The notes below the pieces were generated by a model that saw only the letters and a list, made by a program, of their open reading frames with translations, was not told the DNA's origin and made no database searches. A program made the translations under genes and the position numbers. Positions 12,901-48,519 of a stretch of DNA of 64,000 nt are shown piece after piece (the first letter of the stretch is position 1; the number at the start of each line of letters is the position of its first letter). The stretch is from Fistulifera solaris (lineage: Eukaryota; Bacillariophyta; Bacillariophyceae; Naviculales; Stauroneidaceae), in contig AP026127.1 in the NCBI GenBank assembly GCA_030295235.1, forward strand, positions 1,366,501-1,430,500, given 5' to 3'.

Positions 12901-14490
12901 CACAGGAATACATATTTTATCAGTTGCTGGAGCTTAAAAAATTTCTTTGAGTCCGTTCATAGCACAATTCGGCAATCGTGTGATTGAAAAGGCGCTAGCG
13001 GAACGCTCGACTTCGAATCACTATACCCCGAAAGTGTGGATTACGATTTTTCACGACTGCATTTTAGTCATGAATCGCTATTGAGATTGTGACAAAGTAC
13101 ACCCAAGGCTCCATTTGCCATTTGTTTTCACAGGAATACATATTTTATCTGTTGCTGTAGCTTAAAAAATTTCTTTGAGTCCGTTCATAGCACAATTCGG
13201 CAATCGTGTGATTGAAAAGGCTCTAGCGGAACGCTCGACTTTGAATCACTATACCCTGAAAGTGTGGATTACGATTTTTCACGACTGCATTTTAGTCATG
13301 AATCGCTATTGAGATTGTGCCAAAGTACACCCAAGGCTCCATTTGCCATTTGTTTTCACAGGAATACATATTTTATCAGTTGCTGTAGCTTAAAAAATTT
13401 CTTTGAGTCCGTTCATAGCTCAATTCGGCAATCGTGAGATTGAAAAGGCTCTAGCGGAACGCTCGACTTTGAATCACTATACCCCGAAAGTGTGGATTAC
13501 GATTTTTCACGACTGCATTTTAGTCATGAATCGCTATTGAGATTGTGCCAAAGTAAACCCAAGGCTCCATTTGTTCTCACAGGAATACAAAATTATATGT
13601 TGCGGCAGCTTTATAAATTTCAATGAGGCCGTTCATACTACAATTCGGCAATCGTGTGATTGAAAAGGCGCTAGCGGCTTCGAATCACTATACCCCGAAA
13701 GTGTGGATTACGATTTTTCACGACTGCATTTTAGTCATGAATCGCTATTGAGATTGTGCCAAAGTAAACCCAAGGCTCCATTTGCCATTTATTCTCACAG
13801 GAATACATATTTTATCAGTTGCTGGAGCTTAAAAAATTTCAATGAGGCCGTTCATACTACAATTCGGCAATCGTGTGATTGAAAAGGCGCTAGCGGAACG
13901 CTCGACTTCGAATCACTATACCCCGAAAGTGTGGATTACGATTTTTCACGACTGCATTTTAGTCATCAATCGCTATTGAGATTGTGCCAAAGTACACCCA
14001 AGGCTCTATTCGTTCTACCTGTAACAGGAATATAAATTCTATCCGTTGCTGAAGCATTATACATTTTTTGGACGCCTTTCATTTTACAATTTGGCAATGT
14101 TGTGAGTAAACCCAAGGCTCCATTTGTTCTCACAGGAATACAAAATAATATGTTGCTGCAGCTTTATAAATTTCAATGAGGCTGTTCATACTACAATTCG
14201 GCAATCGTGTGATTGAAAAGGCGCTAGCGGAACGCTCGACTTTGAATCACTATACCCCGAAAGTGTGGATTACGATTTTTCACGACTGCATTTTAGTCAT
14301 CAATCGCTATTGAGATTGTGCCAAAGTACACCCAAGGCTCTATTCGTTCTACCTGTAACAGGAATATAAATTCTATCCGTTGCTGAAGCATTATACATTT
14401 TTTGGACGCCTTTCATTTTACAATTTGGCAATGTTGTGATTGAAAAGGCTCTAGCGGAACGCTTGAATCGAACCACTATACCTATATACC
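9910..14490. repeat. Satellite array, about 20 units of roughly 210-230 bp
   Basis: The block aatcgctattgagattgtg recurs about 20 times in head-to-tail order from about 9998 to 14306. Two unit types alternate irregularly. One has gcttaaaaaatttctttgag and often an extra gccattta; the other has gctttataaatttcaatgag and may lack the gaacgctcga segment. The last two units diverge in their second half (cctgtaacaggaatataaat...). Mixed hybrids show that unequal exchange has homogenised the array. There is no open frame across it. Possible roles are a centromeric or heterochromatic satellite, or simply an expanded repeat; nothing in the sequence decides. Confidence 0.95.
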
Positions 14491-15634: not shown

Positions 15635-18427
15635 ATGAGTGGCGTCAACATCAATCCTATTTTAAACGACCTCATACGCAGTGCTACTGAGATGTTCGAA
15701 TGGGACAAAAAGGAGAATGCGTGGCGATGCAACCAGTGCCCAGAAAGTGATGTTCCTGTAAGGTTCAATAACCATTTAGCCCTGAAGAAGCACATAAAGA
15801 AACACAAAGGCATTTGTGCACAAGGGTGTGAGTTTGACTGGGGTAAAACACCTGGCACCCTCTTTAGATTTCAGAGCAATGGTCCAGATATCAATTGCAG
15901 GGTTTGCGGTTTGATTCTCGAAAACTCCAAAGACTCGCTTTTAAAGCACGCACTCGACGAGCACGGAGACGTGGGCGTCGGACCGTGGCTTATAGAACCA
16001 TACCTCAAGAAGGCCAACGTTGACAAAAATAATTCTCATCTCAAGATTGACGGTCAAGCAATGGTACGCGACTTGCACGGATACGCACATGTTGACGAAC
16101 ACTCCATGGCTACTCGACACGGAGCAAATGCAACGAATGACAATGTAAAGGAAGGTTACTTCGGAATGTAAGTGCACAGCTGTGACTTTGGAGTTCTTCA
16201 TATGGTTGTGTTGGCGAAGAAGACGACGACTCACTGTTTCCTCTGCTTTTTGCAGACCTGTGAATGTAAATTGTCCAGACCCTCGTTCGGAAAGTGAGCA
16301 GCTAGGTTTTTCTCTACCTATTAGCCCGGCCTGTGTATCGTCTCCGGAAGCTCGTAAGGATGAGGCTTTTTCCGATGCACCATCATCGTCGCCGTGTAAG
16401 AAAACGCTTTTTTCCCGTCCGAATTTTACTCGCAACAACTTCAATCGCATCGCGTCTTGCGACAATCTCGCCCAATTATTGCGCTCTTCCGATAATTCCG
16501 ATGATAATGATCTCGCAGACAAACTTGACACCTCCTCGTCGTCCGCATTGAATATTACTTCCTCTTCAATTCCTCGATCCGCGGGCTTGGAGGAGAGCAA
16601 TCTCAAAAACGATAGCAACGCAGAATTCGAACAACCTTTACAGCCACGCACGCCTTTGTCCGTGATAGCAAATGGACAAGATCGCCAATCGACTTCTTCG
16701 GTCAAGCGGAAACCGGCGCTGCCAGCTCACATTGTGGCAACTGGAGCAGCTCTCAATGAAAAGCTACTGCTTCATGTCTTTTCGTTTCTGTCATTGAGCG
16801 AAATCACGACAACGGCGTCGGCAGTTTGCACTTCGTGGTCGGATGCTGCATTGACTGCAACTTGCAGCTTGATGTGCAGCATCCTAAACTTTCCAGACGA
16901 TGACGAGCTCAATGGGGAATATCCTTCCGCCGCTTCTTCTTTGGTGCTTGAGAAAGGTTGGGATGATTTGACGCGCTTATTTCCTTGGGGACGTTATCTT
17001 TCCGGCGGTGCATCAAAGGCCGTTTATCGAGTTCACAACAAGTTTACTAACCGTGCCGAAGCTGTCTCGGTCATGTGAGTTGAAATAGATTTGATCAATG
17101 CTCTGCCTGTCGTCTTGTTGGATACTAATACGCTTGTCGCCACAGGGATTTTGATACAATCACTCATACAAAGACCATCTTGGCCGAGCTCTTGGTTTCG
17201 TGGAAGTTGAGCTCGCTGACGCGTCTTGGAATTTGCCCGAACTTTGTCACAATTCGAGAAGTCTTTACATGCGGGCATCCTCCGCCTTCGGACTGGGGAA
17301 CCGCGGAGGAGGAGGCGAAACTTGGAGATGCTTTTGACCCAGGGATGTCGTATAAGCCGCCATCAAAACCCAAGAAATCGTACCCCGGCCGTTTTGTGTT
17401 TATTCGTATGGACCTGTGTAACCAAGGCGATGCGGAAGCTTTTTTGAAAAATCAGACTGGCGAAAGTGTTGATTCTCTGGTGGCTCGTTCATTCATCTTT
17501 CAAGTTGCGTTTGCATTGCATGTTGCTGGTGCCAAATTTTCTGTGAAGCACTACGATGAAAAATTGTTGAACGTCTTCTTGCACGCCCCGGAGGTGAAAC
17601 GGAATTTGGTACTTCGGTACGGTCTCGGCTCCCGAACATTTGCTCTGAATATGCCGCCGGGACAGGCGATTATTGCTAAAATCGCTGATTACGGCACCGC
17701 TGATATCCGACCTGAATCGAATGGAGAGCCCGTTACTGCGGCACAATTCACCACCATCGAAAATACGCCTCCTGATTTCATGATTCTTGGAGACCGTGCG
17801 CAGCAAGGTCCCGCTCACGACTGCTTTGGGCTGGGTCTCTGTATGTTGCATTTGTTCACAGGGCATGCGCCGTATGAAGAGATTCTCAAGAGTGTCAAAT
17901 GCCCGTCCAATCTGGAGAAGCGCCTGCGAAACATATGGGAGAATAAAAATGATGGTAACTATACGGTCATTCGCAGTGTCATTCTATCTGATGTTGAAGA
18001 AGATGAAGATGGGAATGTTGTCAGTGGAGAGCCGGACGAAAGGGTCTATCATACGCTCTACAGATTCTTGGTCTTGTTTGGTATTCCTGATTTAAAGTTC
18101 AAACGCAAGCGAGGCCCGAAAGTTTGGGTTGCAATCCAACAATTATTGGTCGAGCAAGGCGAAGGGCCCGATGCAAAGACCTATCGAAAGCATTGCAAAA
18201 AGTTTTCCATTTTGGAAGGACAGAACTTTTACATTAAAAGAGCTCGCAAAAGTTTGGAAAGCATGGATGGAGGCTTGGAACTTCTTTTTGAGCTGTGCTC
18301 GTTTGACCCTTCGACGCGTGCTACTGCGCTTGATGTTTTGAATTCACGCTTCATGGCAGCTCTTGTGGAGAATGAAAATAGCTTATACGACCCAGAAGAC
18401 ACGGTGCACTCATTCACAAGCTTTTAG
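15635..18427 (+). CDS. Zinc-finger/F-box/protein-kinase-like fusion protein
   Basis: Three exons, 15635-16167, 16256-17074 and 17146-18427 (introns of 88 and 71 nt, GTAAGT and GTGAGT donors), give about 877 aa. N-terminus: WRCNQCPESD...H-IKKHKG and CRVCGLIL...LLKHALDEH, two C2H2-like fingers. A Ser-rich disordered region follows, then an F-box (LLLHVFSFLSLSEI...VCTSWSDAAL), the SCF-ligase adaptor motif. The C-terminal half is kinase-like: YLSGGASKAVYRV (Gly loop), KHYDEKLLNVF (HRD loop with Asp, Lys, Asn kept), IADYG (DFG as DYG) and HDCFGLGLCMLHLFTG. The strand usually holding the ATP-binding Lys reads EAVSVMDF, so Lys is Ser; activity is uncertain. Finger and linker are shared with the gene at 42740-44420. 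Substrates unknown. Confidence 0.85.
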
Positions 18428-19560: not shown

Positions 19561-20417
19561 GGAGTTCATTAGGGTGATAAGCATATGAAATTTAGGCTTT
19601 CAAATCAAAACAAATGTGAAAGGTATGTCGAAGCGTCTGAGTCTTGTGAGCAGCCTTTTTCTTCGTCACAGAGTTGACCACTTTCGCTATATTTGTGGCT
19701 TCAAAGGCAACCCATTTCGGTGTGCAGTCTATCGGGTAAACTTTGTCGTTAATTGCCTACAACTGGTTGCGGATGTAATACAAGATGTTTTTTAACAGTG
19801 TCGTGAGCATCGTAAATTGTATTCCTTTCAAATACTGTCGAAGTACTGGTAAGCGCTTGAAGATAAACAGGAGATGGTCAAACGCAGGAGTTGCAACTGT
19901 CTTCGTTACATCTTTTATACTTTACTTCTCTCAAAGATGACGAGATGGTCGCGACGACGACGGCGGCGGCGGGGCGGTCGAAAATAGAACGCGGCGAAAA
20001 AACACCGCCTTTTCAAAAACATAACGGAGTTTCGGTCAGACATGCATGCATATAGTGAGAAATATCTATGACGAGTTGTTATACACTGGAGCGCGCCCGA
20101 CGCGCTAATCGATGTTTCACAAAAATCCAAGAAGCGTTTTCTTTCTTCGCGCAGAAGCAGGAACTCACAAAATTATTCGCTCTTATTGTCGTCATCAACA
20201 ACAACGACGGGCATCATATTCAGAACTTTTGCTTGGTAAGCTGCTTGTTAAGTGATTGTGATCCGTCGACGTAAGCGCCCTTGGTTGTGAAGAGACCGCC
20301 AGTCGAACTCTTGTCGTCTCGTAATCGTCATCGTGCTCGTTTCCTAACCTTGGAAGCTCGCGATCGATCCTTACTTGAAGTTCCATCTAACGAAGTTTGC
20401 TCAAATTACTTAGGAAA
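19561..20417. other. Intergenic, no gene seen
   Basis: No frame with a domain. A cgacgacggcggcggcgg patch occurs at about 19955-19975. The last 300 bases should hold the promoter of the gene at 20418. Confidence 0.35.
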
Positions 20418-21215
20418 ATGGACGACGACTCGATTTTGACTAATACTATAGATGCGGTCGATAGGATGCTTCTGGCCAACACCTGCAAATACTTGGAAGC
20501 CAGCAACTTCCCGGACATTAGAATGTGGATGGAGAGTTACCGGAAGCTCGAGGCCGAACGCATTAGAGGAGACCGGTTTTATCGCAAACTTGAACGTCTT
20601 CGAGAACTCAATATTGGCAGATTCGTCGAGAAACGCAACTATCTACTAAGTGCCTTGGAAGAAGACTGGGTAGGACAAGAAAATCTACCTGTGGAAGCAC
20701 CGGTGATGGAATCACAAGAGAATGCTTCTTTAGTAGTGATGGCGTCGCGCACGAACGAGAATCAGCCATCGGGGGCGAGCTCACGACAGCGATATGAAAA
20801 TGGCACGAAAATATCAAAGTTCTTTGAGGTGAATCAAGTGCATACGGAATTTGATGGAGAGGTTATCTCTTTCGACGAGTCAAATGATGGTTCTGGACGA
20901 TGGTTTTACACTATCCGCTACAATAATGGTCATGTAGAGTATTTGCTAGACGATGAAGTAAGCGTTTCGCTCGATGATCAAGTAAGCGAGCTCCTTGATG
21001 ATGATTCAGAAAACTCGGGTCTCGTATGGGTTCGTGATGGAAAAGAACAACATCCCGCAATTCTTGACAAGACCAAATCTCTTGTAAACAAGGATGAAAA
21101 AACATTGCGTGCTATTCGATGGCAAACATCTGGTCGCCCTGCTTTAGTCGAGCAAAACAAAATCGAGTATAAACTTGCTCCTCGCCGATCGACTGTCCCA
21201 CGATACAGCTTCTGA
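20418..21215 (+). CDS. Tudor-like (PTM/DIR17-like) domain protein
   Basis: Single exon of 265 aa from the ATG at 20418 (MDDDSILTNTIDAVDRML). The N-terminal third is a charged helical region. Residues about 125-180 read YENGTKISKFFEVN...FDGEVISFD...WFYTIRYNNGHVEYLLDDEV. This is the pattern of the small Tudor-like domain found in plant PTM and DIR17 proteins, which is a putative chromatin or methyl-mark reader. The tail is acidic, then basic. The same domain is found at 32670-33341, 42740-44420 and in the relic at 9085-9345. Binding target unknown. Confidence 0.75.
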   Translation: MDDDSILTNTIDAVDRMLLANTCKYLEASNFPDIRMWMESYRKLEAERIRGDRFYRKLERLRELNIGRFVEKRNYLLSALEEDWVGQENLPVEAPVMESQENASLVVMASRTNENQPSGASSRQRYENGTKISKFFEVNQVHTEFDGEVISFDESNDGSGRWFYTIRYNNGHVEYLLDDEVSVSLDDQVSELLDDDSENSGLVWVRDGKEQHPAILDKTKSLVNKDEKTLRAIRWQTSGRPALVEQNKIEYKLAPRRSTVPRYSF

Positions 21216-42739: not shown

Positions 42740-44420
42740 TCAAACCTTTTGGTTTCTTCTTTTCGCAGCAAGCCCACAAGATTTATCCGGAGAAGCTTTA
42801 TCTCCCTTCGACCCAGGTGACACATTCTCATTCTCTTCATCGTGTATCAAACTAGCGGCTACGTCAGCTTCAGACATGCGTCCCAGAATGCCATCATCAT
42901 AACGAACTGTGTAACCCCAGGTTCTCGTGCCGTCATCCGCTCTGAACTGATCAAATGACTGAACAGTTCCACTACAAACTACAGCGTCTCCGACCTCAAA
43001 ACCACTGCTGAAATACTTTGCAACCTTTGTACCAGTGGCAAATTTCTGGGCTGGCTCCGACGGAAAACCATCATCCTTCATACACTTCGTCGTGCCATCA
43101 TTGTACTCGACCACTTTATTCCAAGTGATTGTACGCTTGACAGCAAGGGAATTGCTAACTGTTCGTGCTTTCTTAGAAACGCTTTTAGCAGCGGTTCCGG
43201 TCGCTTTTCGTCTGGATGGCCCACTGTTCAACGATTGTGATAATTGGCGACTTTGGCTTCTAGTCGTCGGTGCAGTGATCTCCACAGCACCGCCTCTCGA
43301 TTCGACGTCCTTAGCAAAGGGCGGTGGATGTATCGTGGCAGTTTGTTGTCGTGTTTTCTGATGGAAAAGGTTTTCATTTGAGGCTACTCCAGTTGCCACA
43401 ATGCGAGCCGAAGGTGCCGCTTTCCGCTTAATCGAAGAGATCGGCTGGTGATCTTGTCCATTTGTGTTCACGGACGAAGGCATGCGTGGCTGTAAAGGTT
43501 GTTCGAATTCTGCGTTGCTATCGTCCTTGAGATTGTTCCCCTCCAAGCCCGCGAATCGAGGAGTTGCAGAGGAAGCAATATTCAATGCGGACGACGACAA
43601 GGATGCGTCAAGATTATCTGCGAGTTCATCGTCGGAATCATCGGAAGAGCACAATTGGGCGAGACCGTCGCGAGACGCGATGCGATTGAAGTTTTGTTGC
43701 GAAGAAAGAAGCGCTTTCTTACATGGCGACGATGACGATGGTGCGTCGGAAAAAGCCTCATCATCCTTTCGTGCTTCCGGAGACGATACGCAGGCCGGGC
43801 TAGGTAGAGAAAGATCTAGCTGCTCGTTTTCCATGCGAGCGACCGGATTTGCAGGCCTGCGCAATTTTAGGAGAAGTAAGTCACACAACATGAAGAGCGA
43901 CATTACATTTGCTCACTTACATTCCAAAGTATCCTTCTATCTTGGCGCGTCCAAGCGCGTCGCTTTTCATTGCTTGTCCATCAGTATCCGGAAGTACGTT
44001 GGTAGAGCGCTGCGCCCGACGTTTTGCGCTATATTTCACTTGGTAAACAAACTTCTCTATGGTCCACAAAGGAATATCCGAATTTTTGTGGATTTCGAGC
44101 TGTAAGTGCTCAATGAGAGCACTCGCTTTCATCGGAAGTTGCACATTAGAACAGTCTTTGCACCTGAAAAGTCTATGGTGGAGTCGGAAGAGGGCCCCCG
44201 GCTTTTGCCCAAAATCAAAATCCGTGCCTTGCGCGCAATCATCAGAGTGTTTCGAACTGATGTGGTTTTGCGTCGCCTCGGAGTAACTGAAATACAAAGA
44301 AGGATTCTCGTTTGGACAAATTGTGCAGCGTCCCGACTTTGCTTTTTCATCCCATTGAAAAACTTGAGCCCAATGGCGATAGAGACCGTCCGTATTCAAA
44401 TTGTTGCTCTCGGAACTCAT
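42740..44420 (-). CDS. Zinc-finger protein with Tudor-like C-terminus, paralogue of the F-box/kinase gene
   Basis: Exon 1 (44420-43921) and exon 2 (43856-42740) are separated by a 64-nt intron at the same place as the first intron of 15635-18427 (GYFG|M). About 538 aa from MSSESNNLNTDGLYRH; the frame is open further upstream, but the paralogue supports this start. N-terminus: RCTICPNENP...HISSKHSDDC and CKDCSNV...H zinc fingers, then a Ser-rich linker nearly identical to the paralogue (SPACVSSPEARKD, ALNIASSATPRFAGLE, FEQPLQPR). After ARIVATGVASNEN the proteins part. Here a basic region is followed by FATGTKVAKYFSSGFEVGDA...TWGYTVRYDDGILGRMSEADV, a Tudor-like domain. Likely nuclear, DNA- or chromatin-binding by inference. 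A relic of this C-terminus lies at 9085-9345. Confidence 0.85.
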
Positions 44421-44578
44421 GATATTGAATGACGACTTATTCTTTGATCCGAAAGACTGATTGCGAGCACTTTTTGATTGACATGCAACAAGAGGAACAC
44501 CAGCGATCCTCTTTCTCGCTGACAACTCGTCTGCAGTCGAACATGGTTTTTCTTGGATACAATAACTGAGACACAATC

Positions 44579-45265: not shown

Positions 45266-45847
45266 TCAAAAAATGCGATTGGTGGAAGTCGTTCTTGTTT
45301 GGGAAAACATTTCGCACTGCTCGAGTTGCGCGTGTTCTTGGTTCGCCTGTTTCAAAACTATGAACTATCGGTCGTAAAGGACACGAAGGTATGGCTCCCT
45401 ATTTGCACATGGAATGTCGAATTTCAGTTGACAAAGAAGACCGCCTAAAGAGACATTATCAATACTTTGTAGTTCAAACGTTAGCGTTAGTACGTGTTCC
45501 GGTCGTGCATGGTGACTTACCGGTACTGAAGTATGGCGTATCAAGTGTTCTGACGTGTGACGCGTGACCGCGTGACGGATGATTTTGCCTGCATGCGCGG
45601 CGTCCTGAGCTTTGTTCGCACCGCGAGGTTGACGATGATGCTCTGCAACTGCCCAAGTAAATTCGTCTCATCATTATTTGTGCAATCGTTCTACTCCTCG
45701 GTCCAGTTTTCAGGGGAAGCATATTACTGTTGAGATTCCGTTTCTCGCGCTTTACGGACAACAAGAGCAACAAGATAAAGCTCGTAAACGCTTTGAACGA
45801 ATATCGTTCATTTGTTTCTGACGCTGCGTCTCCTTCGCAACAAAGGA
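45266..45847. other. Intergenic, 5' region of ClC gene
   Basis: No gene seen. A 177-codon antisense frame at 45474-46007 runs into the ClC coding region and has no domain. Confidence 0.35.
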
Positions 45848-48519
45848 ATGGACTATCACAATCTTCCCGTGAACGTGAACGGCGGTGACTACGATGATGA
45901 CGACAGTCTCTCCATTGAAGAAAGCAACGGTCAATTATTCGAAAATGGTTTAAAATGTAGCTACAGCGACAATCAAGGTCAGCAATTGCGCTTTCGGGCA
46001 ACTTCACTAAGAGGCGACGGATACGGCAGCGGCAGTGGAGATCCAGGCAATAGCCTCGTGGAAGACAACACGATTCAATCGCACAATTACGAGCCTGATG
46101 AAAGTGAAGTCTGGCGTGCCTACACGGCGCAATTGCATTTTCGCAATCGAGGACACTGGTGGACGACGGGCAAGAAGCGTTCGCTTATGCGCTGGGTACT
46201 GACGTTCATTATAGGAGTCGTACAAGCACTCGTCGCTATTCTTTCCAATATCGCTTGTCGAAGTCTGTCCCGACGAAAATTTGAGCACGTTTATCAATAT
46301 CTAACTGTGCCGGAACCATCCAGCAGTGTCACAATTGATACGGCTCAAGATTTATTTCAGTTTGATGACGATGCAACGACCGATGGCGCGGCGTCACATT
46401 CCTCCTTGAATCAAAACGTGACCCCGAGTCTTTTTACCGCATTCTTTTATTTTGTTCTTTATCAGTTGGTGTTTGCTGCGATTGCCAGCGTCTTTGTTTG
46501 GATTGAGCCTGTCTCGGGAGGCTCCGGTATTCCGGAAATCAAATGCTTTTTGAACGGTATTGACATTCCTCGGGTCGTTCGAATCAAGACACTGTTTTGT
46601 AAGGTCATCGGTGTCACCTTCAGTGTAGCGGCGGGCTTGCCGGTCGGAAAAGAAGGACCCATGGTGCATTCGGGGTCTGTTGTCGCCGCGGGTATTTCTC
46701 AGGGAAAGACGACTTTGTTTGGACAAGACACTTCGTTTTCTAAATTCAGCGACTTTCGAAACGATCGAGAAAAGAGAGATTTTGTAGCCTGCGGTGCAGC
46801 TGCTGGTGTTTGCAGTGCCTTCGGAAGTCCGATTGGTGGCGTGCTCTTCAGTCTCGAGGAAGCTTCTTCGTACTTTAGTACCAAACTGACCTGGTGAGAA
46901 CAGGACACGCATTGTTTGCGTACGATCCATAAGTCGCATTCTAACATGTCTCTTCGTCTCCTGATACAGGCGTGCGTTTTTCTGTGCCATGACTACTCTT
47001 GCCACTCTTTTTGGATTCGAAACTTCGATTCTCTATGGGGACAAGCGAACATCGAGAAAATGTTTTCCTTTGGAGAATTCAATTCTATCAGCAGAGAGGC
47101 ATCCAATTTTTCAATTTGGGAACTGATCCTTTTTACTATGGTAGGATGTTTGGGAGGATTGATCGGGGCCGTTTTCAATGCAGCCAACGAGCATTTGACG
47201 ATTTGGCGTATGAAGAAAGTCAACAAATCTAAGTCGAGACGATTTGTAGAAGTTCTTTGTGTAAGCCTGGGCGTTTCTATCGTCAGTTTCTTAATGCCCG
47301 TTCTGTGGGGGCGCTGCACGAAGCTGCCCACCGATATGCAGGACTGGACGAACCAAGAGAAGAATTTGGTAGAAGCCTTGGTACCCTTTCGTTGTGTGCC
47401 GGGCAAGGAATACAATGAAGTGGCTAGTTTGATTTTTACCGAGTCAGACATTGCGATCAAGCAGTTGTTTCACTTTCGCGAAGCGGGGCATCGGATATGT
47501 CAACTTTCAGCTCGGGAGCATTATTCTTTTTCTTCGTCCCTTACATTGTCATGGCGACGATAACGTATGGCACCGCTGTTCCCTCCGGTTTGTTTGTACC
47601 ATCGCTTCTATCGGGTGCTGCTTTTGGGAGACTTGTTGGTCACTTGCTTCACAAATTGGACCATACTAACGGGACGTTCGCTGACTCTGGTACATACGCA
47701 TTGATTGGAGCTGCCGCTGTATTAGGTGGAATGGCCCGCATGACAATCAGCTTGACGGTAATCCTTTTGGAAGCGACAGGTGATATGCAGTATGTGCTAC
47801 CGCTCATGTTGACACTCATGGCAGCTAGATTCACGGGTAATGTGTTCAATGAAGGTCTTTACGACATTCACATCCACTTGAAAAACATTCCTTTCCTTGA
47901 ACCCGACGTGCCGCCCATTGCCGAACGCTCGGAGATTGTTGCTGGTCAGGTGATGTCGACAGAGGTTAAATGCCTTCGTCCTGTGGAACGAGCAGGAGTC
48001 GTGTACGATTTGTTACAGCAATGCGGCCATGGAACGTTTCCCATTGTCGATATGGCCAGTGGTGGAACTTTGTACGGAACAGCAAGTCGTTACATGCTAT
48101 TTACGCTGCTACAAAGGCGTGCCTTCGGTTCGCCGGATGTAATTTCAGGCGACTACGATGGAGACACATTGGGTCCCCGCCGTCTGAGTCCGCTAGTTCA
48201 ATGGGATACGATTGAAAAGGCATATCCAAGGTATCCTAGGATTTCGGATGTGCACTTGCGCGAACAGGATCGCAACTGCTGGTTGGATTTGCGCCCATAC
48301 GCGAATACAGCGCCGTACACGATCAATGAGACGGCGTCAATCCAACGCACCTATCGGTTGTTCCGTACTCTTGGCTTGCGGTTTCTATGTGTCGTCAATC
48401 ACAACAATCAAGTTGTCGGTATCATTACACGAAAAGATCTGTTGCCACGTGCTCTGAGTGAATCTTTACTCCGAGGGCGCAACGCCCATGTCAACGAGGA
48501 CTCGCTGGGTTTTACATAA
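45848..48519 (+). CDS. CLC: ClC-family chloride channel/exchanger with two CBS domains (two frame changes)
   Basis: Exon 1 (45848-46893) and exon 2 (from 46970), 76-nt GTGAGA...ACAG intron; the join reads KLTWRAFFCAM. Motifs: GGSGIPEIKCFLNG (Ser form, chloride type), GKEGPMVHSG (gating Glu, typical of Cl-/H+ exchangers), GGVLFSLEEASS, GGLIGAVFNAANE, YGTAVPSGLFVPSLLSGAAFGR and GGMARMTISLTVILLEATGD. Two CBS domains follow (QVMSTEVKCLRPVERAG; YTINETASIQRTYRLFRTLG). Likely in an internal membrane such as the vacuole, as for plant CLC-d and animal ClC-6/7. The frame slips twice: between about 47008 and 47040 (T5 or G4 run one short) and at the G4 run 47485-47488 (one G short; five would give REAGASDMSTF). 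Joined length about 865 aa. Confidence 0.92.

Follow-up and report, generated by a model that had tools for sequence, protein, structure and literature searches.

This locus of the diatom Fistulifera solaris raises the question of whether an F-box and a kinase fold are joined in one polypeptide and, if they are, whether a kinase domain with serine in place of the beta-3 lysine can still act as an enzyme. A preliminary description of the DNA had proposed a zinc-finger/F-box/kinase-like protein and had considered both a pseudokinase used for binding and a kinase that, like WNK kinases, uses another lysine. We followed this proposal up in the 64,000-nucleotide stretch that contains the gene (the window, situated on contig C7) and in the genome as a whole (51.7 Mb, 61 contigs).

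The coordinates given in that description proved right: on the forward strand, the gene begins with an ATG at 15635 and its stop codon ends at 18427, and its three exons, separated by two GT-AG introns of phase 2 (16168..16255 and 17075..17145), encode 877 amino acids arranged as a finger-like part, a linker, an F-box and a kinase domain. The F-box (16752..16853, amino acids 344-377) and the kinase domain (16980..18355, amino acids 420-854, split by intron 2) belong to one gene: exon 2 encodes the F-box, the glycine loop and strand beta-3 in a single uninterrupted frame, and the fusion is thus independent of splice prediction. If the gene model were nonetheless an artefact, the F-box and the kinase would be separate proteins or the locus would be a pseudogene, and one observation points that way. 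In the paralogous copy on contig C26 (L019, C26:354600-362500), a one-base frame offset, which is either an assembly error or the mark of a broken copy, separates the F-box from the kinase. We consider an artefact very improbable, because the two parts are open together in the window gene and in another copy, on contig C25, the F-box shares its frame with the glycine loop, intron 2 is conserved, and dN/dS is far below 1.

The F-box (LNEKLLLHVFSFLSLSEI...VCTSWSDA) is divergent. The Pfam F-box-like model matches it with an E-value of 1.7e-4 and 21.7 bits, and matches the C25 paralogue with 9.8e-5 and 22.5 bits, both below the curated cut-off of 24.3 bits, and the window gene is absent from the 18 matches of a genome-wide scan with the F-box model. 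Its alignment by hhalign to a profile of eight Pfam F-boxes from the same genome, which are not all independent (two are identical), gave a probability of 81%, an E-value of 1.2e-5 and a score of 28.2, a score reached by none of 100 column shuffles (maximum 14.0). The proposed F-box is therefore recognized by comparison with the genome's own F-boxes, and the Skp1 family has four matches in the same genome. For the kinase, the Pfam Pkinase match to the window protein (E-value 5.7e-9; 36.2 bits, the cut-off being 31.7) covers residues 533-854 without the N-lobe, which is covered both in the C25 paralogue (3.5e-14) and in an hhalign comparison with 36 kinases of the genome (E-value 2e-20 over 260 columns). 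The kinase fold is thus present, above the Pfam cut-off and at full length by hhalign; an AlphaFold2 model of exon 3 alone had a mean pLDDT of 35 and was not used as evidence.

The label of zinc finger fared less well. The two putative C2H2-like fingers (15728..15964, C32 to H110) give only sub-cut-off Pfam matches when exon 1 is searched alone (E-values 0.11 and 0.17), but their Cys and His ligands align, by eye, with those of a diverged paralogue on the reverse strand, in which exon 1 begins at 44420. This second finger-like gene (about 42740-44576, reverse strand) lies 27 kb from the F-box-kinase gene and has a related finger exon, an identically placed intron (intron 1 is in phase there too, within 44420-42740), the same linker and a different C-terminal part. 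The Ser/Asp-rich linker block (16289..16765) is 82% identical in DNA to 43832-43368 on the reverse strand, and upstream of both genes 15301-15467 matches 44766-44598 in inverted orientation with 87% identity. By dS, the linker block (0.24) is young and the finger exon (3.5, near saturation) is old, so that block-wise exchange or conversion must have affected the 5' half. Separately, the ORF at 20391-21215, which is Tudor-like at a sub-cut-off Pfam E-value of 0.009, has a weakly similar counterpart in the C-terminus of the second gene.

The homology to the finger gene ends at the F-box, within about 2 bp of the place where homology to the C25 copy starts as judged by the ends of the local alignments; the block shared with C25 extends over 16767..18425 with 69% DNA identity, and the local alignment with C26 starts at 16774. 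Upstream of their F-boxes, the C25 and C26 regions have different sequence with no Pfam match. These alignments make the gene a mosaic of a 5' half that matches the zinc-finger gene and an F-box-kinase unit, and this unit looks like a stable one with exchangeable N-terminal parts.

When the F-box-kinase part was used as a query of its own genome, two more loci were found, on C25 (71% identity) and C26 (69% identity), followed by two matches with E-values of 0.05 and 0.08, one of which falls in a kinase resembling CaMK1. Many kinase genes of this genome are paired across contigs C1/C2, C3/C4 and so on, as in an allopolyploid, and PMC13276009 describes F. solaris as allodiploid; on C8, the own-genome search, in which only the best candidates were scored, revealed no homeologue of the window gene. 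Intron 2 agrees in place and phase among the three genes. A phase 2 intron whose splice carries a comparable short motif also precedes the F-box exon of C25, and it was not counted as shared because the surrounding sequence cannot be aligned. Between the window and C25 kinases, dS is 1.56 and dN/dS 0.137 (456 codons), between those of C25 and C26 the values are 0.25 and 0.107 (471 codons), and the F-box plus linker has a dN/dS of 0.193 (78 codons). Judged by these estimates, the F-box-kinase unit is old and constrained.

Several other features of the window and the genome were recorded. Upstream of the gene, at 13216-13882, there are three short ORFs that repeat one another (KGSSGTLDFESLYPESVDYDFSRLHFSHESLL... 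and similar), and 45797-48519 encodes a CLC-type chloride channel with a CBS domain in two frames, which an intron apparently separates. In the genome, 23 matches to the silicon transporter family PF03842 (best E-value 3.5e-222; one of 14 control genomes was matched, below the cut-off) are indicative of a diatom or some other alga that forms silica. The kinase pair L037 (C14) and L070 (C13), situated near other kinase matches, has NRN in place of HRD, i.e., Asn for the catalytic Asp, and these two are likely pseudokinases.

The motifs HYDEKLLN, DYG and EAVSVM are present in the window protein as the preliminary description had claimed, and the replacement of the beta-3 lysine by serine holds in all three copies. 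The alignments also supply a candidate for the other lysine that it had considered. In the glycine loop of the window protein (S-G-G-A-S-K-A-V-Y-R-V), Lys432 (17016..17018) occupies the position of the third glycine, PKA position 55, which is that of the WNK-type lysine, and Ser449 (17067..17069), at the position of the beta-3 lysine (PKA 72), follows 17 residues later. The C25 and C26 copies have S-Y-G-A-F-K-N-V in the loop and A-I-S in beta-3, which means that all three combine Lys at 55 with Ser at 72. MAFFT alignments with 40 and with 58 kinase stretches agree with hhalign on this register, and the spacing of 17 is also seen in the WNK1 and WNK3 rows. The comparison set comprised 58 of the 143 kinase matches of the genome, homeologous pairs among them not being independent. 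In the other non-WNK stretches, lysine is found at position 55 in 0 of 57 (26 Gly, 16 Ser, 9 Ala, 2 Phe, 1 Cys and 3 gaps) and at position 72 in 56 of 57, the sole exception (L076) having a stop in the stretch and a first strand seemingly in another frame. Apart from the F-box-kinase, the WNK of this genome is the one member of the set that has Lys55 without Lys72. In WNK kinases, according to two papers, catalysis requires Lys55, which extends to ATP in the manner of Lys72 (PMC1821047; PMC4718504), and the second, a 2016 review, counts PRPK as likewise active without the usual beta-3 lysine (PMC4718504).

The residues at the kinase motifs bear directly on the choice between an enzyme and a pseudokinase. 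The F-box-kinase keeps E91, D166, K168, N171, D184, G186, D220 and R280 in PKA numbering, which in the window protein are Glu465 of helix alpha-C (17186..17188), Asp588 of HYDEKLLN at the position of the catalytic base (17555..17557), Lys590, Asn593, Asp632 of DYG (17687..17689), Gly634, Asp676 and Arg842, and the phosphotransfer and metal-binding residues are retained in all three copies. It has lost two of the three loop glycines and has HYD for HRD (in all three copies), DYG for DFG and PPD for APE. An F-box protein whose pseudokinase fold serves as a platform for substrate binding or dimerization would agree with the loss of the beta-3 lysine and of two loop glycines, with HYD and PPD, and with a stem branch as long as 2.2-2.8 changes per column, and we regard it as a possible but less probable reading. 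Under it, Lys72 would have been lost without compensation, which does not predict a lysine fixed at position 55, and it sits poorly with the retention of the phosphotransfer and metal-binding residues in three of three copies together with a lysine at the WNK replacement position, and with a dN/dS of 0.11-0.14. We therefore favour, from these residues and rates, an active kinase with a relocated lysine over a pseudokinase. WNK-like sensing of chloride was also considered and was rejected at the sequence level: according to PMC5346417, the chloride pocket of WNK involves two leucines at the DLG motif, Leu369 and Leu371, and these chloride-contact leucines are replaced in all three copies by DYGT, so that chloride sensing is not predicted.

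Whether the relocated lysine came with descent from WNK is a separate matter. The WNK gene pair of this genome (L062 on C26 and L063 on C25) has Lys55 and Asn72, and its best matches among solved structures are WNK3 and WNK1 (E-value 6.6e-74). Like WNK1, WNK3 and the diatom WNK, the F-box-kinase has lysine at 55 and none at 72, with the same spacing, and keeps the catalytic Asp, the alpha-C Glu and DxG. It differs in having Ser at 72, where WNK has Cys or Asn, in having HYD and DYGT instead of HRD and DLGL, and in its fused F-box, long inserts and low overall similarity. The F-box-kinase pair joined WNK in three of five trees (87/91, 75/50 and 58/84, the last for a union in which the diatom WNK was the sole WNK), the WNK union was never starred in any tree and never rejected in any test, and the WNK group had been named for the trees after Lys55 was already noticed. 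With the columns from the loop to beta-3 dropped, the free tree separated the F-box-kinase from WNK and the constrained WNK tree was 4.65 log units better (p-AU 0.66); removal of just columns 55 and 72 again separated them in the free tree and left the constrained tree 3.43 log units better (p-AU 0.63).

It is possible, and in our judgement somewhat less than an even chance, that the lysine shift is convergent and the gene descends from another family, such as the eIF2-alpha kinases (PEK), which is a statement on ancestry and is compatible with an active kinase of the lysine-relocated type. The best solved-structure matches of the F-box-kinase are to PKR (E-value 0.001); a union with the diatom PEK-type kinase, whose row lacks the C-lobe, was 2.45 log units worse and was not rejected (p-AU 0.225); WNK was not ranked first for the F-box-kinase by BLASTP or HMM similarity within the comparison kinase set; and comparison of gene structures found no intron common to the F-box-kinase and WNK. 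In the eIF2-alpha kinases PKR and PEK, as in the F-box-kinase, a long stretch separates the N-lobe from beta-5, whereas the diatom PEK-type kinase (L084) keeps its beta-3 lysine (YAIK), and no F-box is known in this family. On the other side, WNK is nearest in the three trees given above, and the distance to the WNK gene is about 67 kb for the C25 copy and 59 kb for the C26 copy, a proximity that fits local duplication and that we noticed post hoc, with our own estimate of coincidence at about 0.5%. Descent from WNK is thus weakly favoured on phylogenetic grounds and is not established.

Taken as a whole, the reading we lean towards, with little more than even confidence, is that of an SCF-type F-box protein with its own lysine-relocated kinase domain, probably a fast-evolved relative of WNK. 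The F-box would dock on Skp1 and hence on a cullin ligase. With Ser449 at the place of the beta-3 lysine, the kinase domain would contact ATP through Lys432 of beta-2 (PKA 55), in the manner of WNK kinases. The kinase would phosphorylate, or bind in a nucleotide-dependent manner, the proteins ubiquitinated by the complex, which would place marking and recruitment on one polypeptide, and the N-terminal parts may provide targeting. As in SCF substrate receptors, a single F-box precedes a C-terminal domain with the potential to bind substrates; here this domain is a kinase fold instead of LRR, WD40 or Kelch, and the F-box is divergent and below the Pfam cut-off. A further-reaching version, in which a one-polypeptide SCF receptor-kinase writes its own phosphodegron by means of a WNK-type lysine, Lys55 makes up for the lost Lys72 outside the classical WNKs, and fusion to the F-box was followed by the acquisition of N-terminal targeting parts through exon exchange, appears to us unlikely in its entirety.

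Domain databases include plant and fungal architectures that combine an F-box and a kinase. In the literature, an F-box-kinase protein was not described among the matches listed (for example, the best 15 of 944 and 20 of 35). The word F-box is absent from the Phytophthora kinome paper (PMC3019232), and "kinase" appears 0, 1, 0 and 3 times in the F-box papers PMC5412402, PMC4340835, PMC3719486 and PMC6685633, none of these occurrences being on an F-box-kinase protein. A viral origin was considered and rejected: none of 16 pattern matches obtained with the window kinase as a query and none of 29 obtained with the three-sequence alignment were confirmed in viral contigs, and phage records gave only two chance matches, both with an E-value of 8. 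The contigs of prokaryote genomes gave no relative either (0 of 87).

A second, F-box-fused lineage with the lysine swap of WNK, be it an offshoot of WNK or a convergent one, offers a direct test of the movement of the catalytic lysine. If the proposed activity is true, the writing of the phosphodegron and ubiquitination would be coupled in one molecule, a ligase receptor that carries its own kinase.
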